This document shows, piece by piece, positions 25,431-46,184 of a stretch of DNA of 64,000 nucleotides. The notes beneath the pieces are model-generated. The model made no database searches, was not told the DNA's origin, and saw only the letters and a list, made by a program, of their open reading frames with translations. Both the position numbers and the translations under genes were made by a program. Location: assembly GCA_002205965.3 (NCBI GenBank), contig NADL03000612.1, forward strand, positions 806,001-870,000, given 5' to 3'. Each line of letters begins with the position of its first letter. The first letter of the stretch is position 1. Source of the DNA: Kappaphycus alvarezii. Its lineage: Eukaryota > Rhodophyta > Florideophyceae > Gigartinales > Solieriaceae.

Positions 25431-25497
25431 GGTAGTTCAGCAGATTGTGACCCTCAAAATATTTTGAATATTATGTACAGTACAGTAGTGTACAATA
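25091..25497. promoter_or_regulatory. TACAGTA/TACTGTA word cluster upstream of RRN3
   Basis: Words of the type GTACTG/CAGTAC occur at 25091-25114, and TGTACAGTACAGTAGTGTAC occurs at 25474-25493, about 290 bases before the RRN3 start codon. The same word family lies upstream of most other host genes in the window. A promoter role is inference. Confidence 0.4.
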
Positions 25498-25784
25498 CGA
25501 TCAAGAGCGCTCTTTATTTCCGAATAATTTTTCGAGAATTTATCTAGAAAAAGAACTGCGTGTTCTACGGCAAAGATGAGGAAACGACAGCGCAGGTGTG
25601 CAAGTCACCCACCGCCGGTGGCCGGTTATACCGTATGCGCACGTTTTCGGCACGTTTTCGGCAAAACATACGCAACCTCGACAGCAAAACCCATCGCCTA
25701 CCAGGTAGCCCAGCTGCAGCCCGTCCCCAATTCACATAAATCACCCTACTCCAAACTAGACATTCTCTCCTTTCCACTGTCAAA

Positions 25785-27299
25785 ATGGGTGCCATATCCG
25801 CCCCAAATCCCTCCTTCACACAACCCTTTCCTAACACGTCGATTTCCGATGCCCTCTCGGCTAACTCAAGCGGCAACCCTCTTCTATACCACCAACTTCA
25901 ACACTCCTTGTCAGGCAAGGACCCGAACGCCATAGCAGCTATTTTGACAGACCTCACTCACTACGCCACTTCCCTCCATGAACCCTCCTCCGAGCATCTC
26001 CACGAGCTCGTCGCCACCGCACTCGAACTCGACTTTGCCGCCTGTGCCGTTCCTACCTCAGGCGACTTTCCAGCCCTGGATGCCTTTCAGATCTTTGCCA
26101 TGAACCTTGCTTCTGCACATGCGGGTTATGTTGAGCAAGTATTCGATTGCATTGCACGTAAGGTGTTTTCACTTGGTGTTGATGTGTATGCCCCGATATT
26201 GAAGCGCGTGCATGTGGTCATTGAAGCCATATGCAAGTTGTATCCGCGGGCGATTTTTGTGTTGGGTGATGTGTTGGTACGAAGGTATCCGCATGCGGTA
26301 AGGGCCACGAAGGAGCATGTAAGCTATGCGAGGGCTTGTTTGGAAGTTGCGAGAAGGGTACGGAGGATGAGAGCGGGGGTGGTGGCGATGGTGTTTGAGA
26401 GGCTGGGGGCAATCGAGGCAATGGTCGGGAGTGACGTTTGGGAGGTAAAGGGAGAGAGCTTGACTTTGGAGGCTGGTAAATTGGAGGGGGTTATGATGGA
26501 GGTGATTGCGTATGTAGATTCTGTGCAGGATGGAGGGGTATTTGAGGATATTTATGACGCGTTTGAAAGTGCTATTGTGCCGGTGGATGGGACAAGGTAT
26601 GTGGGATATGTGGTTATGTACGCGGCTGTTAAGGAAGGGATGTTGGAGACGTTGGTGGAGAGACTGCGGGTTGGGTTCTTTGATCGCGTTTCGGAGGGGT
26701 TGAAGGAAAAGTTTTTGAGACACTCGAGTGCAGTGGTGGTTCGCGCTAGAGACATGACAAAGAAGCACGTCATTGAGTGGGTGGCAGAGATTGCAAAATG
26801 GCTGAATGGTTATGTTGATCGCTGGATGAGAGGGGGTGGGGGATATGTCGACCCTAGCATGCACGCTTCATTTTATTGCGCATGTTGCGTGTTGATGTCA
26901 ACGATTGTCGGGAGAAAAGACGCGTTCGAAGGGAATTTGGGCTTGATGCACAGCATGAGGCTTCTAAGAGTGATGTCCAGTGGTATGAACCCGTTGTTAG
27001 TGAATCCGGAACATATTGTAGAGGAGTTTGTGACTTTTGTGGAAGGACCAGGCGGTTTAGATTTGCAGGAATTGATAGAAAATAACAGGCCTCGGCTTGC
27101 CATGGTCAGGACGAGGTTTAACGGAGGCGGCAGCTTTATGTACAAGGTGCAATATGTTGACATTGAGTTGCCGGCTGTTAGAAAAAAGCTTGCAGAGGTT
27201 GTGCGATATGATGATGGTGTGAGTGAAGAAGGTGGCGAGGACGACTGCATGGTGGACGTGGTTGCGTCGGACAAAGACTCAAGTGTCATGGATAACTGA
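25785..27299 (+). CDS. RRN3: RNA polymerase I transcription initiation factor RRN3/TIF-IA
   Basis: Single-exon frame of 504 codons. RRN3 binds RNA polymerase I through its Rpa43 subunit and recruits it to the core factor on rDNA promoters, so it sets rRNA output in the nucleolus. The middle and C-terminal parts (about residues 240-440) follow the RRN3 family closely. There is a helix ending in AIVP followed by a YVGYVVMYA segment (family: LLPTH...FFMFYLCS). Then come VVVRARDMTKKHVIEW (family SFLARAKF), WLNGYV, HASFYCACCVLM, MNPLLVNPEHIVEEF (family LNPLKICLPSVV.FF) and ENNRP. It is somewhat shorter than the human protein (about 650 residues). The ATG follows CAAA and is the first good start after stops. 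The first 350 bases are C-rich and the rest G-rich on the coding strand, as in its neighbours. The C-terminal tail is acidic. Confidence 0.9.
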   Translation: MGAISAPNPSFTQPFPNTSISDALSANSSGNPLLYHQLQHSLSGKDPNAIAAILTDLTHYATSLHEPSSEHLHELVATALELDFAACAVPTSGDFPALDAFQIFAMNLASAHAGYVEQVFDCIARKVFSLGVDVYAPILKRVHVVIEAICKLYPRAIFVLGDVLVRRYPHAVRATKEHVSYARACLEVARRVRRMRAGVVAMVFERLGAIEAMVGSDVWEVKGESLTLEAGKLEGVMMEVIAYVDSVQDGGVFEDIYDAFESAIVPVDGTRYVGYVVMYAAVKEGMLETLVERLRVGFFDRVSEGLKEKFLRHSSAVVVRARDMTKKHVIEWVAEIAKWLNGYVDRWMRGGGGYVDPSMHASFYCACCVLMSTIVGRKDAFEGNLGLMHSMRLLRVMSSGMNPLLVNPEHIVEEFVTFVEGPGGLDLQELIENNRPRLAMVRTRFNGGGSFMYKVQYVDIELPAVRKKLAEVVRYDDGVSEEGGEDDCMVDVVASDKDSSVMDN

Positions 27300-28390
27300 A
27301 GCTGAGGCACAATGTTATTGAGAGCACTTGCGGGACTCTGGGTATCAATTCAAGCAACCGTTTGCCGACGTACATGGAAGCTCACGCAGCTGCCGGTGGT
27401 TGTGATCTCGGTGGGAGGATGCAAATTTTACGCGGCAAGGACGCAGGAGCAGGTGACTTGCGAGAAAGGCATTTCAGTTCTGCAGTAGTCGATGGGGGAA
27501 ATCTGGGAATAGCAGACATGAATAGTTTGTACGGCAAAAGATTTGGCAGGCGGCCTAGTAGTGCTGCGCTCATTTCTCCTGGTGCTGAAATTCGGCGTAA
27601 AGGTTCAAAGCCGTGAGCGAAAAGCGACAAGATTTCCATTCAACGACGGGCCTCCGCTCAGATCTGTCTGACATCAGATTTTTTGAGTAGCTTTATACGA
27701 TGGGCGTGCAATAGTGATGGCTGTAGGTATTTGGGGAATTTTGAGTGAAGAACTTTGGCGGCGGCGAAATGATTTTGATGAGGATTTTGTCACTCGTGTA
27801 GACCCGGCAGGGTTGCATTTTTCGTTGATCAGTCTGCACCGAAGGGGCAGCGATTCTAATCGCTTTCGAGTCTAATTTGACAGATTACTAGTTCATGGAC
27901 ACTTTGCCAATGCAAATGCTGATTTCAAGTCTTTGCTCTCGGCCGCACGGCACCAGAGAGACACCATGTGCGATGACGGTAGTCTAAAAAATCTGATGTC
28001 AATCCGCCGCCAGTTTTGAAAACCAGCGGCCCAAAAAGCGAAGAGGCAGTTCACCAGTGCCAACTCTTCAGCCGTCTACCAATCATAAATCATTATCCAT
28101 GCTATTTGCAAACTCTATTCCTTTAGAGCCATTATGGTCCCTTTGTTGTGCCGATTAGCTACAACAGCGTTCTTCCTGTAGGTTGCTGCCGCAATTCTAC
28201 TACTACCCCACGGGCTTTGTCGTTTTTCCCCAGACACTTTTCAGTCAAGCAACCAGCATCGCGCTCCGCAGACGTGCAGTCGTCCCCAAAGCCAAAGATA
28301 GCATCCTTTACCGAGTGTATTCCTCATCTCCTCCTCTCACTACAAGTGCCGCCCCTTCCATCCATCACACCGCGCCCCCATCACTCCACA
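27300..28390. other. intergenic between RRN3 and the permease
   Basis: About 1.1 kb. Frames at 27362-27616 (+) and 27382-27639 (-) are unrecognised and probably non-coding. It contains the inverted-repeat-ended segment at 27669-28001. The last 200 bases are C/T-rich, as expected for the 5' UTR of the permease gene. Confidence 0.5.
27669..28001. mobile_element. candidate 333-bp MITE with terminal inverted repeats
   Basis: TGACATCAGATTTTTTGAG at 27669-27687 is matched in reverse complement at 27984-28001 (CTAAAAAATCTGATGTCA), 17 of 18 positions. The inside is non-coding. I could not see a target-site duplication, so this may instead be a chance or regulatory inverted repeat. Confidence 0.4.
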
Positions 28391-30093
28391 ATGACCGCTT
28401 TCCTCCCTCCCTCCCCAGTCCTCGTTCACCCGCCAATCTTCCACTCCCAATCGCTCCTCAAATTTCAGCGATACGCAGTCCGTCTTCGTCCCACTACCCC
28501 ACCAACGCGCCGCCAACCCATTCCAACACTCTCCGCAAAACAAACACACACTCCGCTCCCCTCTCTCACAGAACCAGCTTGCACTGCACCCCCGGCATCT
28601 GACAAGCCACCCACGCGCATGTTCTCCAACCTCCGCGTAGACTCGGACGGTTCGCTGACGCGAAAGCCCGCGTCGCAACTGGGATGCGCTGCCCTCATTT
28701 CAGTGAGTCAATTCCTAATCCTTCTGCACCTACATGATTCGCATTTATGATTCCCTCACTCCCCCTGTGCTTGGGCGATGACGCTGACCGTAGTATCATT
28801 CCACTCGATTTATGCGACGACAGGGTACAATGATTGGCGCCGGGGTGCTCGCGCTGCCAACAGTCGCTGCACCAGCCGGATTCGTGCCGTCTGCAGCGGC
28901 ATTGATGGGTGTTTGGGTGTACATGGTGGCGACCGGGTTGTTAATTAGTGGTACGTAGCGTCCATCCACACTGTCATCGCGGATGCGGGCACACGTTTGG
29001 GCAAATGACTCGTGAAACTCTAACGTCAAAGTTTGCCAATGCGGACATGAGTGCAGAGGTGACAATCAACACGGCGTGTAAACTAGGGCGCCCCACGGGG
29101 GTATCGGTGCTGTCGCTGGGCGAGTTGACGCTGGGACGGGTCGGGGCGTTACTCAGCGCCGGGTCGTACACGTTGCTCCATTATGCGATTCTCACGGCTT
29201 ATACTTGCCAAGGCGGTGCCATGCTGGCGGAACTGTTGCATGACTTTGAAAGTTTGACGCAGGTGCAAGAGTGGGCCATATCTCCTGTGTGGATGACGGG
29301 AGTTTTCGCCGGGGTGCTTGGCGGGGGGATGTACGCGCTTTCTGCACGGGTTGTGGAGCGGGTGAACAATGTGCTGGTGTGCGGGGTGTTGTTATCGTTC
29401 TTTGCGGTGTTGGGGGCGAGGGCGGGGCAGGTGGAGTGGGGTCGGTTGGTCGGGGAGATGGATTGGGGGCGATTGGTACATGGGGAGATTCTATCGGTGT
29501 TGTTTGTATCGTGTGTGTATCACAACGTGGTGAGCACGGTGACGATGCGGCTGGAGGGGGATCGAGGGAAGATCCGAAGTGTGATTGTGGCGGGGTCTGG
29601 GTTGCCATTGTGTATGTTCTTAGCGTATAATGCGGCGATTTTGGGAAGCGGTGGGGGTGGTGGGACGGGGCATGGGGCGGCAGTGGCGGGGTTTTCGCTG
29701 CTGGCGGTGGCGACTAGTTTTGTGGGGTTTGTGGAGGGGTTGACGGAATTGTGGGCGGATGTGCGAATGAGTAGGCTGGGGGAGAGTGAGAGTCGGGTGC
29801 GCGGGTCGCGGTACAAGGATTATTTGGCGACGGTTGTGCCGCCGGTGATGATGAGTGTGGTGTGGCCGGATGTGTTTTTGAGGGCGCTGGATGCGGCGGG
29901 GACTTATGGTATTGCGGTTTTGTTTGGTGGACTGCCGGCGGCTATGGCATGGAGAAATCGAAAGGGGAAGGACAGTTTGGGGAGACGGGGTAGGATGGTG
30001 GCAGGGGGAGATGCGGTATTGGCGGTGGTGGGTTTGGTGCCGATTTTGTTGATTGGCAATAAGGTTTGGGAATATGTGCATCATGCTGCGTAG
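28391..30093 (+). CDS. plastid-type tryptophan/tyrosine permease family transporter (3 exons)
   Basis: Predicted exons are 28391-28702, 28824-28950 and 29057-30093, giving 491 residues. Both introns (121 and 106 bases) are GT-AG, and joining them keeps the frame. The second junction restores LLIS-EVTINTACKLGR, matching the helix-2 region of the Trp/Tyr permease family (PF03222-like, the AAA-permease branch of the APC superfamily). The first 90 or so residues are rich in Ser, Pro, Arg and Thr with almost no acids, like a plastid transit peptide. The core follows with GTMIGAGVLALPTV (family glycine motif), LHYAILTAYTCQGG and about ten further hydrophobic helices, several with Gly-rich loops. 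The plant and algal relatives I know of sit in plastid membranes and are taken to move aromatic amino acids. The substrate here is inference. ATG at 28391 is the first in frame, and the context CACAATGACC is good. Confidence 0.82.
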
Positions 30094-30583
30094 AGTTGCG
30101 GTCGACGAAGGAAGATGGAGAGGATCTTGCGGGGTTTTCAGGTGCAATGTCGGGGGAAGAGGTTGTTCTCGTTGCGGAAAATATCACTGTAAGTATTGGC
30201 GATACTGTAATTGTCCGGGCTGCATCAACCAAATATGGTGCTGGTGCCCGTCTTGCTGCGGCCGAAATCACCTGCACCATTGCAGCATCAACATCAACTG
30301 CAACCAGCATTGCACAACACTTTACACGTGTCCACCACCGGTGCCTCCAAAGGTACAGTATTCCCACTTTGCACACGTTGTACAGCACAATGCTTAATCC
30401 AAAAAAAAGGAAAAAATCAACATACCGAGCACTGCTGCCCCATTGCGCTTCCACACGCCCCTCCACGCCATTCATAACTCCGCCCCTTGTGCTCAACTCA
30501 CCTTCCCCCTCACCCGTCCTTCCTCACCACCCTCACCACTACCCCCCATCCAAACCACCGTTTCTCACCCAACCTTCCCCACC
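30094..30583. other. intergenic between permease and UBC2, with upstream word
   Basis: 490 bases. GATACTGTA at 30201-30209 and GGTACAGTA at 30352-30360 belong to the recurrent palindromic word family, 224 bases before the UBC2 ATG. The last 150 bases are strongly C-rich, typical of the 5' leaders in this window. Confidence 0.5.
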
Positions 30584-31290: not shown

Positions 31291-31855
31291 GTTGCATGCG
31301 TCGCGATGGGGGGGTTGTGCGCTGGCGTCTCTGTGCCTCCATATATGAACCCCTGGTGACAATGTAGGTTGCAGCGAGGGGACAGGTAGTGGGGGGGGAG
31401 GGAAGGAATAGACGATACTGTTGTTTTGAGAGCTTAGGTTTTTGTTGTAACCAGCATGAAAGGGCTGGTTTTATGTAAGTAGATGGAAGGATTACGATGA
31501 GACCCTTCTGTGTAATAGCAAGCAAGCGTATGGAATCCTTGTCAACCGTCGTAAGTGAAGATGTCTTGTTGCTGTATCGGTAACGCCTCTAGGTTTATGT
31601 GAATCGTTTCGCCAGAAGAGAAGCGGTATTCATTGTACGATAATGCACACACTTCTTATGCGGGCTTGAGCTTTGGCGCTGAAGAAAGTGGAGTGTGTCT
31701 CCTTTGACCTTAGGATAGAAGAAAATGTAGCCAATTTTGTCCCCATTACCTTGCCCGGATCCGTAAATCGTCTTTGGTTATTCTGCAAATCCCGTTTCGC
31801 TCCGATTGGTCTCTCCGATTGGTTTTTGTCAGGGGATTCGTAATCGATTCCTCAA
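31291..31855. other. convergent intergenic, 3' UTRs of UBC2 and SEN54
   Basis: 565 bases between two convergent genes. G-runs (31389-31402) and T-rich stretches; no recognisable frame or structured RNA. Confidence 0.5.
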
Positions 31856-32905
31856 TCATTCTATGGCCTCCATATCTTGGGCAGTAGCTCCCTTTGCTGT
31901 TGGATTTATAGCTGATAAATCACCATCCAACCGAGGGGTAATAAAACCATGTATGTCACCTTGTCTCAGACGATCTGCCTGTTTTCGCGCGTCAGGGTCC
32001 TCAATTCGGCGAAGGTAGCGGTTTGAAAGCGGAGTAGCATTTGTCGCGAAATCCATCAACACAACAATGCCTCGATCGACCGTTGCAATTTTCAATCTGC
32101 ATTTGTCCATGGTATCACAAAATCGCACCACCCGTTCCATTTCCTCCACAGTTCCTCCCAACGCGTACACCGCGACATAAAATTGTGGACGAGTTTGATC
32201 CCTCCTTTTGAAACCGCCCACCCGCCACACCGCAAAAGAAACGCTCAAACCGCCGCCCTTTACCTCCTTATCCACTCTCCTCACCACCCATCCCATTCGT
32301 CTCAAATGCGCATACACCAAATACTCCTCCATGGTCACACCCCGCTCACCTCCCACCGCAACCGCCCACATCCTTTGCACGCTCATCGGCAACCCCTCGA
32401 CACAACAGTCCAACACTCCACGATCCACCAAATACAACGCCTCCTCTGCATACAAACGTTGCACACCGTTGACAAACTCGCCCATACTCTGAATGCTACC
32501 CCCCCTTGTCACGCTCACATGCGCCGTACAACTCTCCTCATGCCATTCCGCCATTGCCATTCCCTTGGCCCTTGTCGCCCTAGGTGCAGCTACCGCTTTT
32601 CGCAAGGCGGCGACCCGTTCTTTGATTTTAGCCTGTTGTGCTGTCGGTAGAGGTGCCGGGGATAGGAGTGATGCCTTCTTTCCGCGGCGTGGGAGGGATA
32701 GTTTGCGCCACCATTGTAGACCAGAGGAAGCGTTTGCGCGCTGCTTTTTGCGAATGGCGTTTGGATCCGTGGGCGCTCCACCGCGCGGCATGATTAAAGC
32801 CGAGCAGGGTTTCCAGCAAGACGGTGGGCGCCTCGTTTGCTGGCTGTTCCGGAGGTTGACAAGCGCGTCGTGGGACTCAAGGGTTGAACGGCGCCTTTGA
32901 CGCAT
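31856..32905 (-). CDS. SEN54: tRNA-splicing endonuclease subunit SEN54-like protein
   Basis: Intronless frame of 349 residues. SEN54 is the structural partner of the SEN2/SEN34 catalytic pair that cuts introns from nuclear pre-tRNAs. The diagnostic N-terminal SEN54 domain is at about residues 118-215: MAEWHEESC (family AEW..E), RLYAEEALYLVDRGVLD (family PEEALYLVERG), MSVQRMWAVAV and MEEYLVYAHLRRMGWVVRR (family YQVYSHLKRLGYIV). A SEN2/SEN34-like FYVAVYA strand follows near residue 255. No nuclease triad is expected in this subunit. The N-terminus is basic. ATG at 32905 gives the full frame. An internal ATG at 32791 (MPRGGAPT) is a fair alternative start. The gene is divergent from RPL17 and shares about 430 bases of upstream DNA with it. 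Confidence 0.82.
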   Translation of the reverse strand: MRQRRRSTLESHDALVNLRNSQQTRRPPSCWKPCSALIMPRGGAPTDPNAIRKKQRANASSGLQWWRKLSLPRRGKKASLLSPAPLPTAQQAKIKERVAALRKAVAAPRATRAKGMAMAEWHEESCTAHVSVTRGGSIQSMGEFVNGVQRLYAEEALYLVDRGVLDCCVEGLPMSVQRMWAVAVGGERGVTMEEYLVYAHLRRMGWVVRRVDKEVKGGGLSVSFAVWRVGGFKRRDQTRPQFYVAVYALGGTVEEMERVVRFCDTMDKCRLKIATVDRGIVVLMDFATNATPLSNRYLRRIEDPDARKQADRLRQGDIHGFITPRLDGDLSAINPTAKGATAQDMEAIE

Positions 32906-33332
32906 AAACGTATGCTGCTGCTACTAGAGAGTGTGACGGTAATGGCCTTCATTACAGCAAATGCCGTCTAACGAGTACACTATTGTACTGTAAGTATTGC
33001 TGTAGAATACTGCACAGTAGTGCTTAAATCAGGGCCTGTCTCGCGCATGCAGCGGACATATACAGTTCACTGTACAGTATGTACCGTATTACAGTATCAT
33101 TCTATGATACTTGTCCAGACTACACGTGTCAGTGGTGTACAAATATTTAGGTTTGTCGTCGTCGTCGACTTCGGCGTGATCAAGTGCCTCACATGTGCCC
33201 CAGTCCACTACGGCGCTCCAACTCATCACACTGTCTGGTATCGTCAAGTGAACGTATCGCGCTACGCTCCTCGGCCGTCGATTCGTCTTCTCCGTCAGTA
33301 CCGAACAGCCGCACCCTCGCTAACCCGCCACA
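32906..33332. promoter_or_regulatory. shared divergent upstream region of SEN54 and RPL17 with a dense TACTGTA/TACAGTA cluster
   Basis: GTACTGTA at 32985-32992, TGCACAGTA near 33011-33019, and CACTGTACAGTATGTACCG followed by ATTACAGTATC at about 33068-33097. These lie 80-190 bases upstream of the SEN54 ATG and 240-350 bases upstream of the RPL17 ATG. The proximal 100 bases before RPL17 are C-rich. Its role as a bidirectional promoter is inferred from gene layout. Confidence 0.5.
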
Positions 33333-34150
33333 ATGGCCAAGGGCACTTATTCACGAGAACCAGCCAACCCGGCAAAATGTAAGTCCTCCCCGACTCGTCT
33401 CACCTCCGGTACCAACCGCCCATGGTACATCTTTCCTGATTCCTCGTCTAGCTTTACGAATTCCTTCCTTTACAATGGCCCGCGCTCGTGCAGTGCACGT
33501 TGCGCAGCACGGATTGGACAACTACACCCATCTCGCCGCTGTATTCGACAATGCTCTCTGACAGAACACTGACGACTTTTCTCCCTCCGCTGCGATACTA
33601 ATTCACGTCCCGACCGCAACTCTCTATTTCGCCATGTACAGCGGTAAAGGCACGAGGAAGCGATCTTCGTGTGCATTTTAAGAACACTCATGAAGTGGGC
33701 GCCGCCATCAAAGGCATGACGTTGGAGCGTGCGCAAAAGTATCTCCAGGCGGTAATTGACAAGCGTGAAATCGTCCCTTTCCGTCGCTTCAAGATTGGTG
33801 TGAAGGGAAAGCCGCAATGTCGCAATTGGAAGGTGCCGGTGGGTCGGTGGCCGAAGAAATCATGCACATTTGTGTTAGGTTTACTTAAGAATGCTGAGAG
33901 TAACGCAGAGGTCCGCGGGCTGGATACCGATACTTTGGTAGTGGACCATGTGCAGGTGAATAAGGCGATGCGTGGGCGTCGTCGCACGTTCAGGGCGCAT
34001 GGAAGGATTAACGCGTTTATGAGTCAGCCGTGTCATGTGGAGTTGTTTTTGAGTGAGCCGCAGGACCCTGTCGCTGCGGGTGATGAGGATGGCGCCGCAA
34101 TGCCTGCCAATTTGGGACGCACGAGATTGCGCTCAGGTATGACCGCTTAG
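33333..34150 (+). CDS. RPL17: 60S ribosomal protein L17 (uL22), 2 exons
   Basis: Exon 33333-33378, GT-AG intron of 263 bases (33379-33641), exon 33642-34150; 184 residues. Joining restores NPAKSVKARGSDLRVHFKN, the conserved uL22 start (human NPTKSCKSRGSNLRVHFKN). Further family blocks are MTLERAQKYL, VPFRR, GRWPKKS, LLKNAESNAEVRGLD, VDHVQVNKA, RRRTFRAHGRIN and SQPCHVELFLSE. The protein lines the peptide exit tunnel of the large subunit. In place of the usual Lys-rich C-terminal tail it has an acidic and then Arg-containing tail (EPQDPVAAGDEDGAAMPANL then RTRLRSG). The start ATG follows CCGCCACA. The short first exon, splitting after 15 codons, is typical of ribosomal protein genes in intron-poor genomes. 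Confidence 0.95.
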
Positions 34151-35409
34151 AGTGGTAAACTGATTTCATTGAGCTGTTTGATTACGAAATAGTGTCATCC
34201 CGCGCGTGTGCCGCAAGTAGGCATGTATAGTTTCTCCGCGGTTAGATGCGGTTGAATATTGTATACAGCAGGTTTAGCGCGCAGGCCAGTAGTTGAGGTA
34301 GAGAGACAGCTCGTCGCGGCTCGTCGCCGGTGAAGTAGTAGAGGTTGGCGTTGGTTCTAGCGGGCTGCCAGTGCGTACCCTGTTGTCGTGGGCTGGGTAG
34401 AGGCTGATAGCTATTTCGTGCGGTACACGGGAACTAGAATCCCACAGGATTTCAACTCACTACACGTTGGCGCGCATATGGGCTATGACTTTCTTTAACA
34501 TTTGTACCGGCGGTGACGAAGGCGATAGTTCGTAGGCAGTGTTTGCATGCTGATGGCGGTCGGGGCAGAGGTTGTGCTGTTGAGTATTAACTTTGTGGTC
34601 TTCAAACAGGTATTTAGAAATGTGTGCGGTCTGCGGTAATGGAAAGCCGGGGAGTCATGTTGAGATGGTTTGTGTCTGGTGAAGCGGGGTCTACGGTGTA
34701 AAAGGGGTACGTCATTGTATTGGCGTAGGATGGTGACGGGTTTTGCAGGGTGGAAGGAATGGTGCAAAGTGGCCAGCGTTGGAAGATTGGTCAGATTGGT
34801 ATCTCATGAGGAAGGCAGGCTGTTCCAGTACACAGCACTTGGCTGGAACTTGGCCGAAGTTTGAAATTTTTGTTTGCAGCAGAGGCAGGTACGTGTAATG
34901 CCCTGCAGAGGCAGCCGAAGGAATCAGCCTTGTACAAACTGAGGGCCTCGGACTGGACCTTGGTCAAGTTTCCGCGTTGCTGCTGCCGTCAGCACAGGTC
35001 GGGGCGTTTGATACTTGACCGAATGACGGGTGCTTGGACAACTGTTCGTTGGTATACGCATCTCGAGAGTTTTCGTGGAGGTTGGAGTTTTTCTCTTTAA
35101 TGCTCGTGATCCATTTGGAAATGTAACAGATTCAACAACAAGACTTTGGGCGTAATCAAATAATTTGGTGGCGTCCAGTAAAGTGCGTACAGTACTGTAC
35201 AGTAGATATAAATGTGCTATTACATGTGACCTGTAGGCATTTTACCAAACAAATCGGCGATTAAAAGCACCGTTACTAAAGGACTTTCCGATTTGCCGCA
35301 TTTTCTGCTTTCTTAGGCGTTGAGTTGGTCGCCCTCGGAACGGCAGTTGCATTCCCGTGTTATCCTCAGATCCAGTTATTGTCCTCCATCCCTACCCATA
35401 CCCTGAACC
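34151..35409. other. intergenic between RPL17 and enolase
   Basis: About 1.26 kb. Two related segments (about 34830-34885 and 34940-34998; shared core CTGGAACTTGG/CTGGACCTTGG then AAGTTT) suggest a diverged 110-base duplication. GTACAGTACTGTACAGTA at 35187-35204 is directly followed by a TATA-like ATATAAAT, 205 bases before the enolase ATG. Frames at 34670-34864 and 34861-35100 are not recognised. Confidence 0.5.
35187..35212. promoter_or_regulatory. palindromic word plus TATA-like box upstream of enolase
   Basis: GTACAGTACTGTACAGTA contains overlapping perfect palindromes (CAGTACTG, TACTGTACAGTA) and runs into GATATAAATG. This is the longest form of the recurrent word. Core-promoter role is inference from position. 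Confidence 0.45.
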
Positions 35410-36768
35410 ATGTCCCGCATTCAAGACGTCAAAGCGCGGCAACTTTTCGATTCTCGTGGCAACCCGACGATCGAAGTGGAAGTCGAGACCGACGATGGCA
35501 CCTTTCGAGCCATGGTCCCCTCAGGTGCATCCACGGGCAAGTACGAGGCTCACGAGCTCCGCGACGGTGATGCTAAGACCTTCAACGGAAAGGGTGTACT
35601 GAAGGCAATAAAGAACGTCAATAACCAAATCGCCGTCGCCGTCATTGGCATGGATCCCACAGATCAAGAGGGTATAGACCAGGCTATGATTGATTTGGAT
35701 GGGAGTGATGATAATCGAAAGTCGCAGTTGGGCGCTAACGCCATTCTGGGAGTTAGCATGGCTGTCACACGTGCGGGAGCTGCAAAGAAGAAGATCCCGT
35801 TGTATAAACATATTAATAATTTGGCTGGCAATCCTACACCAATGCTCCCGGTCCCGTGTTTCAACGTCATTAACGGCGGCTCGCATGCGGGAAATGGCTT
35901 GGCAATGCAGGAGTTTATGGTATTGCCCACAGGGGTCGAGACTTTTAAAGAAGCCATGCGAGTGGGAGTGGAGATTTATCACAAGTTGAAGAGTATTATC
36001 AAGCAAAAATACGGACAAAATTCGACCGCAGTCGGCGATGAGGGCGGATTCGCTCCTAATATTAAGGATAATGAGGAGGCATTGAAATTGATTCAGGAGG
36101 CAGTGCGCGAATCTGGCTATGAGGAAGTGGTTCAAATTGGTATGGATGTGGCAGCCAGTGAGTTTTATGATGCAGATGCGGGAAAATACAATTTGAACTT
36201 CAAGGCGACTTCGGGGAGTACGGAGCCGGAGAAGATGAAGACGGCGGATGAGTTGCTGCACATGTACAAGTTATATGCCGCCAAATATGGTGTTATATCT
36301 ATCGAGGACCCCTTTGATCAGGATGATTTCGGATCGTACGAAAAGATGACAGGTGAGTTGAATGAGCTCATTCAAATTGTAGGGGACGACTTTCTGGTTA
36401 CCAATCCGGAGCGTATCGAGCAGGCTATCGAGCGCTCGGCCTGCAACGCTTTACTGCTGAAGCTGAATCAGATTGGAACCGTGACAGAGGCCATTGAGGC
36501 AAACAATTTGGCAAGGAACGCAGGTTTCGGCGTGATGGTGAGTCATCGCTCAGGGGAGACAGAAGATCCGTTTATTGCTGCACTCTGTGCTGGGTTGGGC
36601 ACTGGGCAAATCAAGGCTGGTGCACCATGCCGTTCGGAGCGGTTAGCAAAGTATAACGAACTTCTGAGAATCGAGGAAGAAATGGGTGACGCGGCTATTT
36701 TTGCCGGGGAGTACTGGCGTGACCCTTGGATGCTACAGCCGGTGAATCGCCGACCGTCTTATATGTAG
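35410..36768 (+). CDS. ENO: enolase (2-phospho-D-glycerate hydro-lyase)
   Basis: Intronless, 452 residues. Converts 2-phosphoglycerate to phosphoenolpyruvate in glycolysis. The full enolase fold is readable. The N-terminal domain starts [19 protein letters not shown] and has the loop [15 protein letters not shown]. The barrel follows with catalytic and substrate residues in [16 protein letters not shown] (His and Glu), GDEGGFAPN (Glu), [10 protein letters not shown] (catalytic base Lys) and [10 protein letters not shown]. The three metal ligands lie in MDVAASEF (Asp), [10 protein letters not shown] (Glu) and [10 protein letters not shown] (Asp). There is no N-terminal extension, so a cytosolic location is likely. 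The end is unusual: after [12 protein letters not shown] the protein continues for about a dozen residues ([13 protein letters not shown]), where many enolases stop around this point. The ATG lies in ACCATGTCC, a strong context. Confidence 0.97.
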
Positions 36769-37136: not shown

Positions 37137-40100
37137 CTAATCATCGCTGTCGTCATTCCCTTGAACATCTTCAGTCCACTTTGAGGACAACTCAAAAGTA
37201 GGATCACATAATACATAAACGGCATCGCTCTCCGCGCAGAGTGTATTTGGATCTGGAAGTGTGTACACATAGGGCAACAAATTTCGAGTTACAGCACGTT
37301 CTCGATACTTTGCTTGTCCAGGAACCTCAAACGAATTATCGCCATTCCCTAGATACCGCGCAAAGTAGTCCAGTCGCCGCGGCGAAACGCCTGCAGACTT
37401 TCCACCGCCGTCTTGTGCCCCCTCTTTTTCTCTTTCCTCGCTGTCGTCTTTCAAATCCAGGCGAGGCATGTCTGGCGCACCACTCGAGGGAGAGACTTTG
37501 GCCTCGTCCGCTGGTGGCTCCTGGACCGGTTCATTGCCATCGGTTTCAGAGGTGTCTTCATCTGAATCTTCAGATTCATCCATCTGGTGCCCCGGTTCAC
37601 GACCTCCCAGAATCTCGTTCCGACCTTTCTGCTCTTCCGCTCGATAGGGCATCAGATCTTTCAGCAATTTCCATAATGAGCTGAATGCCCCAGATACTTT
37701 GGGAACTGAAATAGGCTTCTTCCGATCATGTTCATCAAAGAAAGGCTCTAATTGCTCCAGAATCGCCAGCCCACGACGTGCTCTGCTTTTCTTGGGAATC
37801 AGTGCAGGTGCCTCACCAGATCGATAAATCCCAAGAGGGGTAACACCTTGCCGAACAAGGGACCGGAACACAATATTGTACGGAATGAAAAGCCGCCTCT
37901 GTCTCAATACAGCGCCATGCTCCTCTGCAAATATTGCCTTCGGAATGCGCACCAGCCGAATCTTGAGACCTGGGGCGTCTGGCGCAGCCCCAAGAAGATT
38001 TGAGTAGAAATTTGAAAATCCAGGCTCGGTGTACTCGCGAGCAAGCAATGTTATTGCACTTGAATGCACAAGGAGCTCTCCAGAAGCATAGCGACTTCTA
38101 GAAAACAAAGATCCGCGTCTCGCCCTCGCAGCCCCAGCGGTCTCATTTGGATTTGTACCTGCCGCTTCTTTCGGGGCTCCATCGCGCATTGACATCAACT
38201 GTGTCATACCTTTAAAATCTGCAGAGCCCACGCTCGCTATACTAGCGCTGTTGTCTTTCGTCTCACGTAATGTTACCTTGTTCTTGACAGACCTCGAAGA
38301 AGTCAGGTGCGGACCCGAACTCGGAGTTGTTCCAGGAGGTCCAGCAATTCTGCGCTGTTGGCCTATACTTATAGCTTCATTCTTTCGAACATCGGTGGGA
38401 TCTTCTCCAGTTGCCACCGTCCTGGATATCTCCTCCGCATCAAAATTGACTTTAGTAGCGTGCCCTTGAGTCAAGTTTAAAGATTCATCTTCAAGAGCAG
38501 CCCCCTGCTCTGGCGCGGCGCCAGTAGATTGAACTGGAGATGCAAGGCTGGCTTCAGCACTCGGCAAGGGCGACGCGACATGGTCCCCAAGCAGTGCCCC
38601 TTTTCGACGGGAATGTATTGGCTCTCTCAAATACTCAAGTGCTTTTTCGTCAACCAATTCTGTGCATATGTATACGTCGTGGTCCGGAGTGGTACTGACT
38701 TCCAGGGTAAGCAAGGTAAAGATAGAGCGCGCATCAGATATATGCCAAGGTTGAGTATAGTCAGCCATAGTTGCGACAGACTTAGCCGTCGTCAGCTTGG
38801 CCCGTGTCCAACTTCGACATGACGCGGGCGAGCCCTCAACAAAGAATAAGTGGCGGCCCTCGTGATGAGCAAAGTCCTCCCTCAAATCATCGTCAACATT
38901 GGGATGAATCACGACTACCTTCGCTTTCTTCGCTTTTCGCATACATCGTCGATCGTCCTGTCGCCACAATCCGGTCAAAAACAAAGCGAGATTGGTTGAG
39001 GGCGTATCGGCCTCCATGGCAACGATTACATGACCAGAGATCTTTTCCGGTATATCGTAGTCCTCGAGGGCTCCGCTCCTACGCCCGCTTCCTGGCTTCC
39101 TGTCTAGGTCGCTAAACACGTCTACGCTCTGAAAGCGTATCCGAAACTGGGATGAGAATCTGCTCAGAGGAGTAAAAGGGTTGCCGGTACTAAGCCCAAA
39201 AGAACCATCTGCTGCACCCGCCCTGCCACTGTGCAACACCCCTCCCGAAATAGCATCGGTAGACGCATGGGCTTGCAGCAAATGGCGCATTCCTCCCGTC
39301 CGAAACCTCTCAGCCACAAGGTGCAAAGCGGCCCCAACAAATCGTTGCTCATGGTAAGTTAAAAACATACCAATATCTCCCTCTTGGAAAACTGTGTCTG
39401 TTCCTAGAATGGCATTCATTTGAATATCTCTTGGATTGCTCATGGCCACGGGGACCAGGCCCAGGTGAAACATTTCCATTGAAACGTCCCGCACGGCCAC
39501 CCCATCCAGGCTGTCTGGTATAATTGCGTATCCTAACGAACAGGTAGCACCGAGATGGTACTCGGAAATCCACACCGGGTCGTCAGGTGCTGGCTTTGCG
39601 ACATGCACATCCAGATACATGTTGGACAACAAAGTGCCGAGGCCATTGACGCGCATGTTACCCGACATGAGTGCCATATGAATCTCCTGTAGGCAAACCA
39701 GCTGCGAGCGGTCCAGGTCATTGATAATTACATTTGGTCCCAGTCGCTGATCCTTCCCTTGAATCTCTCCATGTTGGCGCAGCACCTCAAAAAACTCCTG
39801 CCTCCCATCCCTCTTATGGGCCCTTGGCAGGGCTTCAAACTCATTCTTGAGAACCTGATGAAACAACCCCAGATACGAGGCTCCTTTCCGCATAAGCTTT
39901 GTACCTCTAGTAAAAGTTCCCTTCCCAAATGATGTCGGGGTACGCAGCGCCACGTCTGTCTGCAAGTTGGACTTTTCCAGCAAAGTCTGGGCATAGATTG
40001 GAACATCGGTGCGAATATTCCTCACGGCAAGAATGTTCATAACGGTACTTGTATCCTGAAGGGTGGGCTCCTCCCCCACAGAGGGGGAGGTAAGGAAGAA

Positions 40101-41264
40101 TACAGCATCAGCCATGGCGATGCGTGCACGTTGCAAATCGCCTGGGTTGCGAGGAGAGCCGATGAGGTATTGCAAATGGGTCTGGAGAAACTGATTACGG
40201 GCAATGCGCTGATACCACTCGGTGTCGGTCCAAGTGGGGTTTTCGACGAGGACGACAATCTTGGCGTCTGCGTTGGAATCGCGGATATCGGAATAAAACT
40301 CGGAGACAAAGAGAGTAAGGTCGGATAGAGTTGGAGTGCCGGTGACGATAACATGGCGCACATCTGGGTTTTTTAGGAAGGAGCCGGAGCCGCGCCCGCG
40401 ACTAGATTGCTCGACGAGCTCACCGATAACAGAGGTAAAAATGACGATGCCAATGATGATGATAAGGATAGTGTAAATACGACCCTGGACGGTGGTGGGG
40501 GAAAAGTCACCATAGCCGACAGTGGAGAGGGTGACGATGATGAAATAGACCGAGTTGAAAAAGTTCCAGTCGCCAAGGGCTCCCCACTCGATGCGGAATT
40601 GGGGTGAGAGTAAATCGCCGGGGACTTCCAAAAGTTGAATACCAGCGGCGAGGGTGTAAAAGAGGGTGAGGCACTGAAGGGCGAGTTTGCCAATGAGACG
40701 CCGAGTGCTGAATAAGTGGACGATGAATCGACGTTCAAGTCTCTCAAAGGCGACGTATGTTTGAATGGAGCGCAGGAAGGAAAAGTTGAGATAGGCGTTG
40801 GGACCCTCGGTGATGAGAAGGGAGGGGATGGAAAAGGCCTCGAATAGAAAGACGATGGTGAGGGTGCGGGTAAGGGCCGAATCCTCAGTCAGGAAGATGG
40901 AGAGTATATCGGCGAAGAAAAAGGCGGCAGCGACTCGATAGAAGATGGTGATGTACTCGGGGACATTACGACGGTAGGTGCCGATGATATAAAGGACGCA
41001 GATGGTGCCGTTGAGAAGGAATCGAAGGAGCTCGACATAGTAGAATAGGTTTGTATTGCGGTAGCGTTTGAGATAGCGAGTATGCCAGCCGAGAGGGGTA
41101 TAAGGCGTGCCCTTTGCTGCAGTGTAGCGCGTAAACCATTTTGACTTGCGAAGTAAGTCTCGAAACAAGGCTAGCACTAGTATGGCAAGGTATGTGATCA
41201 GGCCGGCGTAGGCGGTGCGGGCTATGAAACCCCAGAGGTCATCGTTTTTGGGCTCGACGTCCAT
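37137..41264 (-). CDS. BK/Slo-like potassium channel with cytoplasmic RCK domains
   Basis: Intronless. I take the ATG at 41264 (MDVEPKNDD), giving 1375 residues; the frame stays open about 20 codons further up but only to a GTG. About six N-terminal hydrophobic segments end in the pore, with selectivity filter TLSTVGYGDFSP (about residue 246) and a pore-lining helix (IYTILIIIIGIVIFTSVIGELV). The first RCK domain (HVIVTGTPT..., about 305-460) is followed by a BK alpha-like region (DTSTVMNILAVRN, IYAQTLLEKSNL). A second RCK-like module starts HVIVAMEADTPSTNLALFL. After it come a long disordered Ser/Pro-rich linker, an ordered block (LVHSSAITLLAREYTEPGF, NIVFRSLVRQGVTPLGIYR) and an acidic tail. 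Family members are gated by cytosolic ions such as Ca2+; no canonical Ca2+ bowl was seen. The S4-like segment (SFLRSIQTYVAFERLERR) has few regularly spaced charges, so voltage sensing may be weak. Confidence 0.88.
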   Translation of the reverse strand: MDVEPKNDDLWGFIARTAYAGLITYLAILVLALFRDLLRKSKWFTRYTAAKGTPYTPLGWHTRYLKRYRNTNLFYYVELLRFLLNGTICVLYIIGTYRRNVPEYITIFYRVAAAFFFADILSIFLTEDSALTRTLTIVFLFEAFSIPSLLITEGPNAYLNFSFLRSIQTYVAFERLERRFIVHLFSTRRLIGKLALQCLTLFYTLAAGIQLLEVPGDLLSPQFRIEWGALGDWNFFNSVYFIIVTLSTVGYGDFSPTTVQGRIYTILIIIIGIVIFTSVIGELVEQSSRGRGSGSFLKNPDVRHVIVTGTPTLSDLTLFVSEFYSDIRDSNADAKIVVLVENPTWTDTEWYQRIARNQFLQTHLQYLIGSPRNPGDLQRARIAMADAVFFLTSPSVGEEPTLQDTSTVMNILAVRNIRTDVPIYAQTLLEKSNLQTDVALRTPTSFGKGTFTRGTKLMRKGASYLGLFHQVLKNEFEALPRAHKRDGRQEFFEVLRQHGEIQGKDQRLGPNVIINDLDRSQLVCLQEIHMALMSGNMRVNGLGTLLSNMYLDVHVAKPAPDDPVWISEYHLGATCSLGYAIIPDSLDGVAVRDVSMEMFHLGLVPVAMSNPRDIQMNAILGTDTVFQEGDIGMFLTYHEQRFVGAALHLVAERFRTGGMRHLLQAHASTDAISGGVLHSGRAGAADGSFGLSTGNPFTPLSRFSSQFRIRFQSVDVFSDLDRKPGSGRRSGALEDYDIPEKISGHVIVAMEADTPSTNLALFLTGLWRQDDRRCMRKAKKAKVVVIHPNVDDDLREDFAHHEGRHLFFVEGSPASCRSWTRAKLTTAKSVATMADYTQPWHISDARSIFTLLTLEVSTTPDHDVYICTELVDEKALEYLREPIHSRRKGALLGDHVASPLPSAEASLASPVQSTGAAPEQGAALEDESLNLTQGHATKVNFDAEEISRTVATGEDPTDVRKNEAISIGQQRRIAGPPGTTPSSGPHLTSSRSVKNKVTLRETKDNSASIASVGSADFKGMTQLMSMRDGAPKEAAGTNPNETAGAARARRGSLFSRSRYASGELLVHSSAITLLAREYTEPGFSNFYSNLLGAAPDAPGLKIRLVRIPKAIFAEEHGAVLRQRRLFIPYNIVFRSLVRQGVTPLGIYRSGEAPALIPKKSRARRGLAILEQLEPFFDEHDRKKPISVPKVSGAFSSLWKLLKDLMPYRAEEQKGRNEILGGREPGHQMDESEDSDEDTSETDGNEPVQEPPADEAKVSPSSGAPDMPRLDLKDDSEEREKEGAQDGGGKSAGVSPRRLDYFARYLGNGDNSFEVPGQAKYRERAVTRNLLPYVYTLPDPNTLCAESDAVYVLCDPTFELSSKWTEDVQGNDDSDD

Positions 41265-41929
41265 TGCGCGGAGGGGGAAAGGGAGTGACGAAGGGAGATG
41301 GGAAGGGGAGGTGGGGCGAGAGGTCACGCGGATGAGCGTTGCGCTGCGCGGGGGGGCGGGGAGCGGCAGTGATTTACTTGCACTTTTGTAGTCGCGAGGT
41401 TGCTATGAATAGCATGTCAAAAGGTACACATTGTCGTTATCGTTATTGTTTGAATGGCGCCTCGGATTACATACTGTATGTACAGTACATGCTGGTGCAG
41501 AAAGACAAACTGACATTAAGGTGCGCTCTCTGATTGGGCCTCGAGACCCGCGCCCCTATCCTAAATGCCGCCTCAAGCTCTCCAATACCATACGAGGCAG
41601 TATTGTTGCTTCAATGGCGTTGCTCATTATTTGCAGTAATTAGGCCCCCCGAGGCGGTGCGTAAAAGAGCAAAGTTGCAGAGTTTCTGTTCAATCCCAAT
41701 CATTACATCCAACATTATGAGTGTTTCACAATTGGCAAGAACTTTAATGCATTCAGTATTTCCACGCTGCCGTGGCCGTAATGTCCAACGCAGCCTGTCT
41801 GCTGGGGGGCCTCGAGCCGGCTTTTTAGGGTAATTTCAGAGGTATTACTGCGCGCCCTGTACAGTAGGATATTCCGGGCCACAACCGATCATATTTTTCA
41901 AATATAAAATCACCCCACATTTTCCCAGG
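41265..41929. promoter_or_regulatory. divergent upstream region of the K+ channel, with palindromic word
   Basis: ATACTGTATGTACAGTACAT at 41471-41490 lies about 207 bases upstream of the channel ATG, and TGTACAGTA lies at 41859-41867. The first 100 bases are G-rich on the plus strand, that is, C-rich on the channel's coding strand, as in other leaders here. The frame starting ATG at 41717 stops after about 38 codons and is not recognised. Confidence 0.45.
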
Positions 41930-42420: not shown

Positions 42421-42613
42421 GGCTGATTTTTATGCTGGCGGAGCTGCCTCTCCCCTCTTCGATCCCTAAAACATCCTCTTGGAGCCGTTGATCCAAGTCA
42501 TGCTCGAAACCGCTTCAAAGCGCAGCTCTACAATGTAGCGCCGTCCCCTTTCAAAAATTGACCTTCCTGTGACGAGTTTCCGTGCCCAACCCTTGTTTTG
42601 GGTTTATCTCATC

Positions 42614-44176
42614 ATGACTTCAGCATTCGCTTCTGCATTCTCTCTCACGGAGACAACAACTTGCACCCGCAATTCAAAATGTTCCTTCAATTACTTGTCA
42701 TCCTTTTTTCAGCAGCGTCGTCCACCTCCCCTTCGGAAACCCGTATCTCTCCCGGCACCAATCCCGAAAACCTGTCAAGCAAGTGCTCCTCTTGCGACCT
42801 CTATCTCTTACGTGGTAGGTCAATCCACCAAACCGCGAATACTCGACGCCCTGAAAGAGTCACTTTCAATCGCCGCTTCCAATCTCGCTGCTCGTGGTCG
42901 TACTGCGTGTCTTGCGCTTCTCTATGTCAAAACCACGTCCGAATCCCATCCTGCCCATGAATGTAAACATGTCATCTCCGTCGCCAAAAACTCCCTGCCC
43001 ATGTATCGCGTCCTCTCTCGCGATACCAAATTCTTCGGTTGCACCACCGCTGACTACCCTGCCCCTGAAAATCCTTCCGCCGTCGTTGCCCTCGTTTCAT
43101 TTCCTAACGATACTCACCTGAGGGCGCTTTACATCGAACCAAAGGCGTTTAATTTAGACTGGACTCAGCAACAATGGTTCGACGTAATAGGCACACCTTC
43201 CGCACAATCATCGCAGCAAACCATTATGCTTCTGTATCATCCAAGGTTTGATTCCGTTTCCGATCTCTTGTCTTGGCTAGACTTTGCTTACCCAGGTGTC
43301 CGAAAGCTGGGAGCTTGTGCGGGCCATGCCCATGCGCTTGATGAAGTATACCTGTTCAATTCCCAAGGTCAAGTGAAACGCGGTGCAATTGGGCTCTCTT
43401 TCGCCTCCCCTCACGTTCAGATTGACGTCACTGTAGGACAAGGGTCACGGGGAGTAGGGCCGTTGCTAGAGGTGCAGGAAGTCCGAAACGGAAATGAGAT
43501 AACGCGCGTCAAAGAGATTGGAACTCCGGCAGAGAGCCAGGGTGCTCCTATGATGTTAATGGACACGTGGGCAGGTACTGATGCCATATCGCAGGAGGAC
43601 CGCGAGTACGCGAGGAAGTACTTGCTTATGGGGATTGAGGTCCCGAAAGTGGTGGATTTAGCGGTATCTTCTTCGTCGAGCATGTCAGAAGGCGGGCCGA
43701 AGGTTGTTGATGCAGAAGAGGAACGAAAACAACCTGTGGAAATGGTCATACGAAAGGTAGTGGGATTTGATCAAGGTACCAGGAGCCTGGCAGTTGAAGG
43801 AGATGTAAGATTGGGCAGCCGGGTGCAGTTTCAAATTCGAGATGAAGAAGCGGCACGGTCTGAGTTGAAGACGCTGTTGAACAGGTTGATGCTGGAGGGG
43901 AGTTCAAGAATGATTGATGGGATGAGTCTGATGGGTGCGATGATAATCGTGGATTCAGAGCGAGGGGAAAACCTGTACGGTAACATTGCGGCAGACGCGG
44001 ATCGGACTATGTATTGTGAAAGATTTCCCGTGCCGACTGTTATGATGACGTCGGAGCAGCAGATTGGACCATTGCCGGCCGGTGGTCTGCTGGGGACAGC
44101 CGGAAATAATTTTCTTTTATCTGCCTCTGTGCTGTACTTGTCGATATACGGTCGTGTAGCGAAAGCTTCGAGTTAG
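42614..44176 (+). CDS. FIST-domain protein, probably plastid-targeted
   Basis: Intronless, 520 residues from the ATG at 42614; the frame opens 15 codons earlier but without an ATG. The first 60-65 residues are rich in Ser, Thr, Pro and Arg after a hydrophobic start, suggesting an organelle-targeting peptide. FIST N (about 75-265): regular alpha/beta pattern with the family motif FFGCTTADYP, FDSVSDLLSWL, LGACAGHAHA, and RGAIGLSFASPHVQIDVTVGQGSRGVGP. FIST C (about 290-510): EVPKV.DLAV, VEMVIRKVVGFDQGTRSLAVEGDVRLGSRVQF (family signature), and GPLPAGGLLGTAGNNFLL near the end. Family knowledge: FIST domains are ligand-sensing modules found in bacterial signal proteins, and plants and algae keep chloroplast copies of unknown role. 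The 5' half of the gene is C-rich, the 3' half G-rich. Confidence 0.85.
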   Translation: MTSAFASAFSLTETTTCTRNSKCSFNYLSSFFQQRRPPPLRKPVSLPAPIPKTCQASAPLATSISYVVGQSTKPRILDALKESLSIAASNLAARGRTACLALLYVKTTSESHPAHECKHVISVAKNSLPMYRVLSRDTKFFGCTTADYPAPENPSAVVALVSFPNDTHLRALYIEPKAFNLDWTQQQWFDVIGTPSAQSSQQTIMLLYHPRFDSVSDLLSWLDFAYPGVRKLGACAGHAHALDEVYLFNSQGQVKRGAIGLSFASPHVQIDVTVGQGSRGVGPLLEVQEVRNGNEITRVKEIGTPAESQGAPMMLMDTWAGTDAISQEDREYARKYLLMGIEVPKVVDLAVSSSSSMSEGGPKVVDAEEERKQPVEMVIRKVVGFDQGTRSLAVEGDVRLGSRVQFQIRDEEAARSELKTLLNRLMLEGSSRMIDGMSLMGAMIIVDSERGENLYGNIAADADRTMYCERFPVPTVMMTSEQQIGPLPAGGLLGTAGNNFLLSASVLYLSIYGRVAKASS

Positions 44177-44909
44177 CACTGAAGGGGTACGGGGCGACTT
44201 GCGAAGATTGGGATACTTCTTCAACAAGCCTGTTGGTTGCGAAACAAGCATCTAGGATTTTGTAGGATTGTTCCTACCGAAGCAAGCTTAAGGCTATCGA
44301 TCGACGCGAGATTTTGGTCTTGATTCAACATACGGGAGAGACCGGGATGTTGAGATATGGTGTGCAGATCCGGTGCACGAACCGGCAGCGTGCAGTTTTC
44401 CCGCACACAGTTGCAAGAGAAAGTAAGTACAGCTTCAAAGGGAAAACGAGTTGGGCTTAAAGTGTCTATGCTAAAATCAATCTTAGCGCTGAACCCAGTC
44501 TTGTCTGAAACACGTTGTGGATGAGGACTCTGGAAAGTACGTTAAGGGACTTCAGGTACACAGGTGGCAATCTGCAATCTGCGCTGGAACATTATCCGCA
44601 GTAAACTGTGTCATGTGTGGCAAGAGCCTCTAGGTTGGTTTCAGGATCCTGGTATCATGGCAGAGGACATCATTAGTATTAGATGTGTAGTCGGAGATTG
44701 TGAAGCAGTTCGGACTCGCATGAATGCAGGTCCTGGACAATTGGCAAGGAAACGAAATTCTGCAGTGTTGTACCGTCGTGTTTTCCTTTACGGCGGCTGT
44801 TTTCATTGGTGGCCGAGGTGTTTCTCTGTCTTCAATGCGTTCTAGGCCCGAGCCAATGAGTTCGGGAGGATGATCACTGGGGGTTGTACCATGCCTAGGA
44901 TATCACCAC
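44177..44909. other. intergenic downstream of FIST gene, no gene seen
   Basis: About 730 bases. A 93-codon plus frame (44564-44845) and a short minus frame (44221-44406) show no recognisable family. Confidence 0.4.
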
Positions 44910-45185
44910 GCATGTAGGGCCCTTCGTCGGATCCGTGCCGCTGGTTTGGACACTCAGTTCGAAGTGTCTGACCTCATCCCCGATTCCGAGCTTCGGCCCG
45001 GAGACATATTTGTACAACCTCCTGCCTCCCCCACTGGCTCCTGTGAGAGACCCATTGCCTGTGACGTTGCCATCATATCGCTGCTTACGTCGGCCGCCGC
45101 CGCAGCTGCGATGCGAGTCGCCGAAGGCTCGGCTATCGAAGGATACTGCCAGAATATTCAGAAGTTGGAACACGAGCTGTCCTAG
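44910..45185 (+). pseudogene. non-LTR retroelement fragment: restriction-like endonuclease end (copy 2)
   Basis: One open frame from about 44910 to the stop at 45183. It reads HACRALRRIRAAGLDTQFE, then ELRPGDIFV, then CDVAIISLLTSAAAAAAM and a short helix ending KLEHELS. A basic/His start, RP(G)D, and D-V-A/T-I/V form the expected order of the catalytic core in the C-terminal endonuclease of R2/R4-like elements. The Ala-rich helix after the last Asp is shared with copy 1. No reverse transcriptase lies directly upstream, so it is a 3' end stub, as left by 5'-truncated retrotransposition. Confidence 0.5.
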
Positions 45186-46184
45186 CGAATGGTCCACCCC
45201 TCCTTGGCCCCTTCTCGTGGAACTCGCGACCTAGGTTTCCAGTTCCAGCCCACAATTTTTCACTGTTAAGGTGCTGCATGCTCTGATACCGTAATTTTCC
45301 TTGAAGATTTTATCGACAGTGCTCCGAAGTACTACGACTCTCCTATCATCTTTCGGACGCGTATATATTTACGCCCTAGTTGCATCTTATGGTCATGGGC
45401 AGCAATAGCTCTTATTTCCCGCTCACCACGATGTAGTGTACACTCAAGATAAGTAAAGAGTAAAAATTCATTACTATACGTAGCCGACACTCAATCTTAA
45501 TACTGCACATAGTACTATGTACAGTATTGCATGTACCTACTGTACATACTACGGGTATTTATGCGAACCGAATTGCACTATTCTGAAATGGCGGGACAAG
45601 CGGTACCGAAACTCCGATACACCGCAAACAAGTACTCCAGATAGATCAGGCGGGGGGATGAATAAAGCGTCTGTAAGGAATAAACGAAGTTCAAAACATT
45701 AGCATTGGCAAAGTCGGCAATGGATCGGGACAAGTAGACCTGTCTTAGGCGGGGTTACAGACCAAGGGAGGATCACGGAATCCTGTTTTCCCTGCTATTC
45801 AAGGAAAATGTCTTTGAATGGGACAGGTGGTGACATGTTGTTGAAGGTACTTATATCGTGATGATATCTCACATATTTCTGGAGCATGTAACCATCTATT
45901 TGCCAGACAGCAGTCAGTCTACACACAAGAGTTTACTCGATCATATCAATCGATATGCCCCCAAATTCTGACAAAATTAGTCCGCCCCAGTCCCCTCCAC
46001 CCAGAATCCCCGACTAATCTTCTCCCTATGCAGAATATGTACCAGTAACCTCTCCAACACAAGCTCACAAGACGACAACCGCTGTTCCTCTATTGCTAAG
46101 GTCTTTAAATGGTATGGTTTTGTTCACTGATCCAAGATCTCGCCCTAGTTCTATCTCATCATCTCACACGCCTTCGGAACTTAC
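45186..46184. other. intergenic, with one palindromic word cluster
   Basis: About 1 kb. TGTACAGTA at 45518-45526, CTACTGTACATACT near 45538 and TAGTACTATG near 45510 form a cluster like those upstream of host genes, although no gene was recognised next to it. The frame 45517-45702 is not recognised. Confidence 0.4.

Follow-up and report, generated by a model that had tools for sequence, protein, structure and literature searches.

Nested TAC(A/T)GTA words upstream of protein genes in Kappaphycus alvarezii as probable excision scars of Tc1/mariner-type transposons

The window considered here is the whole stretch of 64,000 nucleotides that was analysed from the red alga Kappaphycus alvarezii (G000:C608:806001-870000, in a genome of 336 Mb and 884 contigs), in which short words of the form TAC(A/T)GTA, also written TACWGTA, recur upstream of genes. 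Eight genes were placed in it. Pfam matches name RRN3, SEN54, RPL17, enolase, a BK-type potassium channel, a FIST-domain gene and a Trp/Tyr permease, and the name UBC2 comes from our own reading of its exons, without a database match. The words are probably excision scars of cut-and-paste DNA transposons of the Tc1/mariner type, a reading to which a probability of about 0.8 is given. Sites and genes are arranged as follows, in window coordinates.

5608-5698, no strand assigned: cluster of putative scars away from recognised genes, including TACAGTACTGTA at 5687-5698
14289-14496, no strand assigned: four TACAGTA sites without a recognised gene; the overlapping open reading frame (ORF) at 14235-14582 has no Pfam match
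25095-25106, plus strand: nested pair with one mismatch, TACTGTGCAGTA, upstream of RRN3
25476-25487, plus strand: nested pair TACAGTACAGTA; the RRN3 ORF (25785-27299) starts about 300 bases downstream
30203-30360, no strand assigned: one site at 30203-30209 and another at 30354-30360, both preceding the UBC2-like gene, whose first exon is read at about 30584
32986-33096, no strand assigned: cluster of putative scars flanked by SEN54 (31856-32905, minus) on one side and RPL17 (33671-34150, plus; start uncertain) on the other
35188-35204, no strand assigned: three nested sites; enolase (35410-36768) follows after about 210-220 bases
41472-41487, no strand assigned: two sites that precede the BK-type potassium channel ORF (37137-41327, minus) by 145 and 154 bases
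41860-41866, plus strand: one site, followed after about 700 bases by the FIST-domain gene (42569-44176)
45520-45544, no strand assigned: two sites without a recognised gene nearby

A word search recovers all the clusters that a first-pass annotation, made from the sequence alone, had listed upstream of RRN3 (25476-25487), UBC2 (30354-30360), SEN54 and RPL17, enolase, the potassium channel and the FIST gene, as well as the two that it had placed away from recognised genes (14289-14496 and 45520-45544). Further sites beyond that list lie at 572, 4738, 5608-5698, 5984, 6640, 11156, 12287 and 30203. The annotation had described clusters of TACAGTA/TACTGTA that are often fused into a palindromic word; the repeat unit is the 7-mer TAC(A/T)GTA, some copies of which share two bases with the next copy, and the exact 12-mer TACTGTACAGTA has a single copy in the window, at 35193-35204. 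On both strands together TACAGTA occurs 28 times, whereas 100 shuffles of the sequence average 5.2 occurrences and never exceed 10. Seven of the eight placed genes are preceded by a site within 1 kb, with the starts of UBC2 and RPL17 being approximate and our own reading, and in circular shifts of the sites this number of genes is reached in just 0.06% of shifts. None of the eight ORFs contains a site, and the annotation had likewise noticed none in coding regions. The gene without any site within 1 kb upstream is the Trp/Tyr permease-like gene (28948-30093, plus strand), an exception that is absent from the annotation.

The position of the words was followed beyond the window at 60 loci, half of them taken from the 39 matches to the proteasome domain and half from the 49 matches to the Ras domain (30 each), and sister copies and exons of one gene were merged by sequence into 30 groups, each represented by the locus nearest the domain start. 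In these groups 92 sites lie in the last kilobase before the matched domain and 9 in the first kilobase after the stop (30 kb in total in each case), and 12.8 kb of matched coding sequence holds none; less complete merging yields 37 groups with 106 upstream, 9 downstream and 0 coding sites. An upstream site is found within 1 kb of the matched domain in 16 of the 30 groups and within 1.5 kb in 21. Over all 60 loci one site falls inside a matched domain (L055; 22.8 kb), which is near the chance rate. An unbiased test of the region from -900 to -100 in 51 loci ranks TACAGTA first among the 7-mers, with 148 occurrences where 2.7 are expected. Among 12 of the 63 tRNA gene matches, each taken with 500 bases on either side, 11 are free of sites and one has sites, and four 10 kb stretches chosen by place, which together with the window form the transposon control, hold 1, 14, 1 and 7. 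The upstream focus of the words is established, and the statement of the first-pass annotation that they precede most host genes is strongly supported beyond the window.

Such a placement would be expected of a general promoter or insulator element, in which a transcription factor binds TACWGTA and the arrays represent cooperative binding with five-base phasing. The strong upstream position, the scarcity of sites in coding DNA and near most of the sampled tRNA genes, and the first rank of TACAGTA in the unbiased upstream test are all in line with this proposal. SBP and AP2, two GTAC-binding families, gave no match in the search, a result that for SBP lacks a positive control and is no proof of absence. 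A trihelix factor that is reported in Kappaphycus in an excerpt of PMC12567131 was considered as a possible binder only. Against the proposal, the words show no strand preference in the locus sample (107 versus 97) and no convincing target consensus around 26 clean isolated sites, where just A is scarce and C is somewhat in excess beside the word.

Genome-wide, overlapping pairs of TAC(A/T)GTA are present at 41,390 places, compared with 99 for the reversed-word controls. These are made up of TACAGTACAGTA at 24,697 places (12,368 and 12,329 on the two strands; reversed control 56), TACTGTACAGTA at 9,195 (reversed, 26) and TACAGTACTGTA at 7,498 (reversed, 17). On the single contig C1, overlapping pairs form at least 85 clusters over 1.56 Mb. 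Single sites above chance would number roughly 100,000 in the genome, a figure that is extrapolated from the window density and the pair-to-site ratio of the sample and not counted. Runs step by five bases with an overlap of two, so that pair distances of 5, 10, 15 and 20 are prominent in the locus sample. The middle base along a run is A or T, almost independently: 16,693 of the 41,390 overlapping pairs (40%) have unlike middle bases, where full independence would give half. This contradicts the idea that the words are a five-base microsatellite spread through replication slippage alone, as the nested pairs do not consist of identical tandem units; 143 of the 191 runs in the locus sample are, moreover, single sites.

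More direct evidence on how the words arise comes from comparing copies of the same locus. Many loci are paired as sister copies, mostly 90-99% identical upstream (such as L005/L006 and L061/L062), which suggests that the assembly holds haplotypes that were left uncollapsed or else a recent duplication. Their alignments reveal whole five-base units gained or lost. Where one copy has TA and the other TANNNTA between matching flanks, the three additional bases are C(A/T)G (CWG) in 17 of 20 cases (17 pairs; about 14 distinct events) and in 9 of 10 cases from five further pairs, giving a combined 26 of 30 in which some differences are one event counted twice. As background, CWG makes up 240 of the 535 TANNNTA words in the sister-copy loci. 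The empty TA that marks a footprint is, in these cases, present in the sister allele. Units were gained without copying a neighbour in L061/L062, L041/L052, L017/L007 (at -1040) and L022/L019, and slippage cannot create TACTGTA at a lone TA, as is found in L061 versus L062. Copies that differ in length by five or ten bases, in some cases through plain tandem duplication, are in keeping with slippage (indels of 9, 10 and 11 bases number 1, 6 and 3, and at least four of the six ten-base indels are word units), and this process may explain part of the arrays, about one nested pair in five on the assumption that the others are independent. As the sole origin of the words it is hardly credible. In one sister pair the unit that sets the copies apart at a TA is CCG, and TACCGTA/TACGGTA, one word and its complement, is also over-represented upstream of gene loci (16 versus 3.2, both strands).

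Isolated sites change mainly by units. In the sister copy 10 of 19 isolated sites are intact, compared with 881 of 1163 control 7-mers, and none of the nine changed sites is an equal-length substitution, compared with 164 of 282 changed controls. In this comparison, 20 sites and 482 controls were unplaceable, two of the nine changes may be alignment-edge effects and both pair directions were counted. In five later pairs two of three isolated sites and 288 of 379 controls are intact, and the single change is a substitution. There is no sign in these small samples that sites are conserved more than their flanks between sister copies, and motif columns do not stand above background. Conservation no better than that of the surroundings, combined with turnover by five-base units, is difficult to reconcile with a bound promoter element, which is not supported as the origin of the words and is considered improbable. 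The site for a dimeric factor that the first-pass annotation had proposed is not supported, for these reasons and for the missing strand preference and flank consensus. Its other suggestion, a very short mobile repeat that would be tolerated in open chromatin, comes near to the evidence if transposon excision scars are meant, and its interpretation as a whole is partly supported.

The seven letters are known from a characterized transposon of the Tc1 type, as excerpts of two reports give TACAGTA and TACTGTA as the footprints of Sleeping Beauty (PMC4378557, PMC3432063). According to an excerpt of a third, cleavage by the transposase falls within the element, three bases from its end, and the overhangs are sealed by end joining (PMC7827188). 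An element of this type would insert at TA, duplicating the TA, and at its exit three tip bases, C-A/T-G, would remain between the two TAs, converting TA into TACWGTA with a gain of five bases. Reinsertion at a TA within an old scar, followed by another exit, would add further five-base units whose middle A or T would be more or less independent, and repeated cycles could build mixed arrays that hold the palindrome TACTGTACAGTA. A three-base cut followed by end joining therefore leads one to expect a five-base gain at TA, a free A/T middle and mixed five-base arrays, and all three are seen. The build-up of words upstream would indicate that insertion before protein genes is favoured or tolerated, presumably because of the chromatin there, and scars in coding DNA would shift the frame and hence be purged. 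Most of the remaining scars would be neutral.

A candidate for the maker of the scars is found at L004, a locus fetched for its 12-mer, which also holds a Tc1-like element with ORFs matching HTH_Tnp_Tc3_1 (2.3e-13) and DDE_3 (6.3e-15). This element (C1:113474-115036) has its HTH and DDE_3 domains in two overlapping ORFs in different frames, and carries two repeats, one outer and one inner, at either end, with terminal inverted repeats flanked by TA (one copy was read). It lies inside an array of TACWGTA words, with its matching inverted end beside another such array. A cysteinyl-tRNA synthetase ORF, the 5' part of which is our own reading, has its 5' end about 590 bases from the element. The family end ACTSCTGWCTGATGCCATA has 65 copies in the genome and its reversed form none, and TACWGTAC precedes 34 of the 65. 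Twenty inverted end pairs are present, 18 of which are spaced 1526-1552 bases apart, and the family is 1.55 kb long. Of these 18 full-length pairs, the prefix stands at both ends in 10, at one end in five and at neither in three, that is, at 25 of 36 ends. A diverged relative in L038 reads GGTA-TGTACACTTGCTG, which is the prefix minus one base, and this favours the view that the prefix is the tip of the element. The TACWGTAC prefix probably belongs to the element, in which case this family would have produced the scars. Frames of 345-402 amino acids, uninterrupted by stops, are found in several further DDE_3 matches, with 150 of 1,153 first-look candidates scored in the genome search. BLAST of the element against the window gave no match at E < 1e-3. 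A search of the examined loci for inverted ends beside TA (18 bases, up to 3 mismatches) found none with CWG ends except the word arrays; the C1 element was beyond its reach, because the right end of that element lies outside L004. Two elements resembling miniature inverted-repeat transposable elements, whose inverted ends adjoin TA and do not start with C-W-G, are located at L037:6288-6904 and L080:163-413.

The same ends could be read as the target of the element instead of its tip. In that case, a Tc1-like element with the tip CACTSCTG homes to TACWGTA arrays (pre-insertion TACWGTACWGTA) that were made otherwise, for example by a Tc1 family with a CAG tip, and the words may still be scars. 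The occurrence of the prefix at both, one or no ends in the 10, 5 and 3 pairs and the mixture of A and T at six family ends favour this, and CACTGCTG resembles the Tc1 tip. Homing would, however, require a double site as the target in 10 of the 18 pairs, and the L038 relative looks like a copy that carries the prefix within the element. This alternative is considered unlikely, and the scars are tentatively attributed, with the reservations that follow, to the C1 family or its relatives.

Several observations weigh against excision scars left by this family. Excision is itself deduced from the form of the words and their differences between copies. Such words also arise by chance; more than 300,000 are present in the mouse genome, according to an excerpt of PMC4378557, and a lone word consequently proves nothing; the case rests on the excess, the nesting and the empty TA. 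Most of the CWG differences between sister copies are located in or beside arrays, where slippage could also act. Five-base indels are not in overall excess (15, 12 and 4 for sizes 4, 5 and 6), just five of the 12 are word units, and the number of isolated sites placeable in a sister copy is small (22). No site is found within 1.5 kb upstream in nine of the 30 gene groups. The prefix is missing from 31 of the 65 family ends, its middle base varies among six of them (A, T, T and A on the left, T and T on the right), unlike a fixed tip, and the family tip may instead start at CACT. Sleeping Beauty, finally, inserts nearly at random and is not known for a promoter focus as strong as that seen here.

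Compared with the footprints of Sleeping Beauty, the words share the identical seven letters, the five-base gain at TA and the A/T middle, but differ in their scale, at about 1e5 by rough extrapolation, in their five-base arrays and in their upstream focus, with the makers being proposed from sequence. Among Tc1-like elements, the C1 family resembles those whose inverted ends contain inner and outer direct repeats: it shares the length of about 1.55 kb, the HTH_Tnp_Tc3 and DDE_3 domains and, in the one copy read, the outer and inner end repeats. It differs in its host, a red alga, and in a tip that could begin with CWG or with CACT. Highly iterated palindromes such as cyanobacterial HIP1 are also short and far above chance genome-wide; the words described here differ in their position upstream of genes and in growing through insertions of five bases. 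DNA transposon traffic near promoters is also a feature of the Stowaway and Mutator elements found close to the 5' ends of plant genes, but in the present genome it is the scars that are abundant, not the elements. A search for the 12-mer in the literature collection used found no paper, and among the matches listed for the shorter words none dealt with algal promoters or footprints. Searches on red algal core promoter motifs, tandem mariner footprints, red algal Tc1/mariner elements and Tc1 tips likewise gave no such description among the matches listed. The signal is real and very strong genome-wide, and its molecular origin would be of a known kind; footprints are already known, and it is the scale, nesting and promoter focus that are unusual and for which no description was found.

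Excision scars are usually met singly, and tens of thousands that are kept, nested and decaying would be a direct record of past cut-and-paste traffic and of which chromatin was open to transposons. They also give reason for caution, as the strongest "promoter motif" from motif discovery can be a mutational signature. If the scars alter promoter activity, they would represent abundant natural promoter variants between haplotypes. A bolder and rather doubtful possibility is that a promoter-homing Tc1-like transposon wrote the approximately 100,000 scars, that their new palindromic TA targets seeded more, and that the arrays became a common component of promoter sequence and were co-opted as binding sites or nucleosome-excluding tracts.

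Two fragments of other mobile elements are present in the window, a DDE_Tnp_4 transposase fragment at 48972-49463 (minus strand) and an RVT_2 copia-type fragment at 3905-4321 (plus strand). Elsewhere in the genome, tRNA matches of equal score recur every 5.7 kb or so at G000:C802 and C388, with the look of a tandem array.

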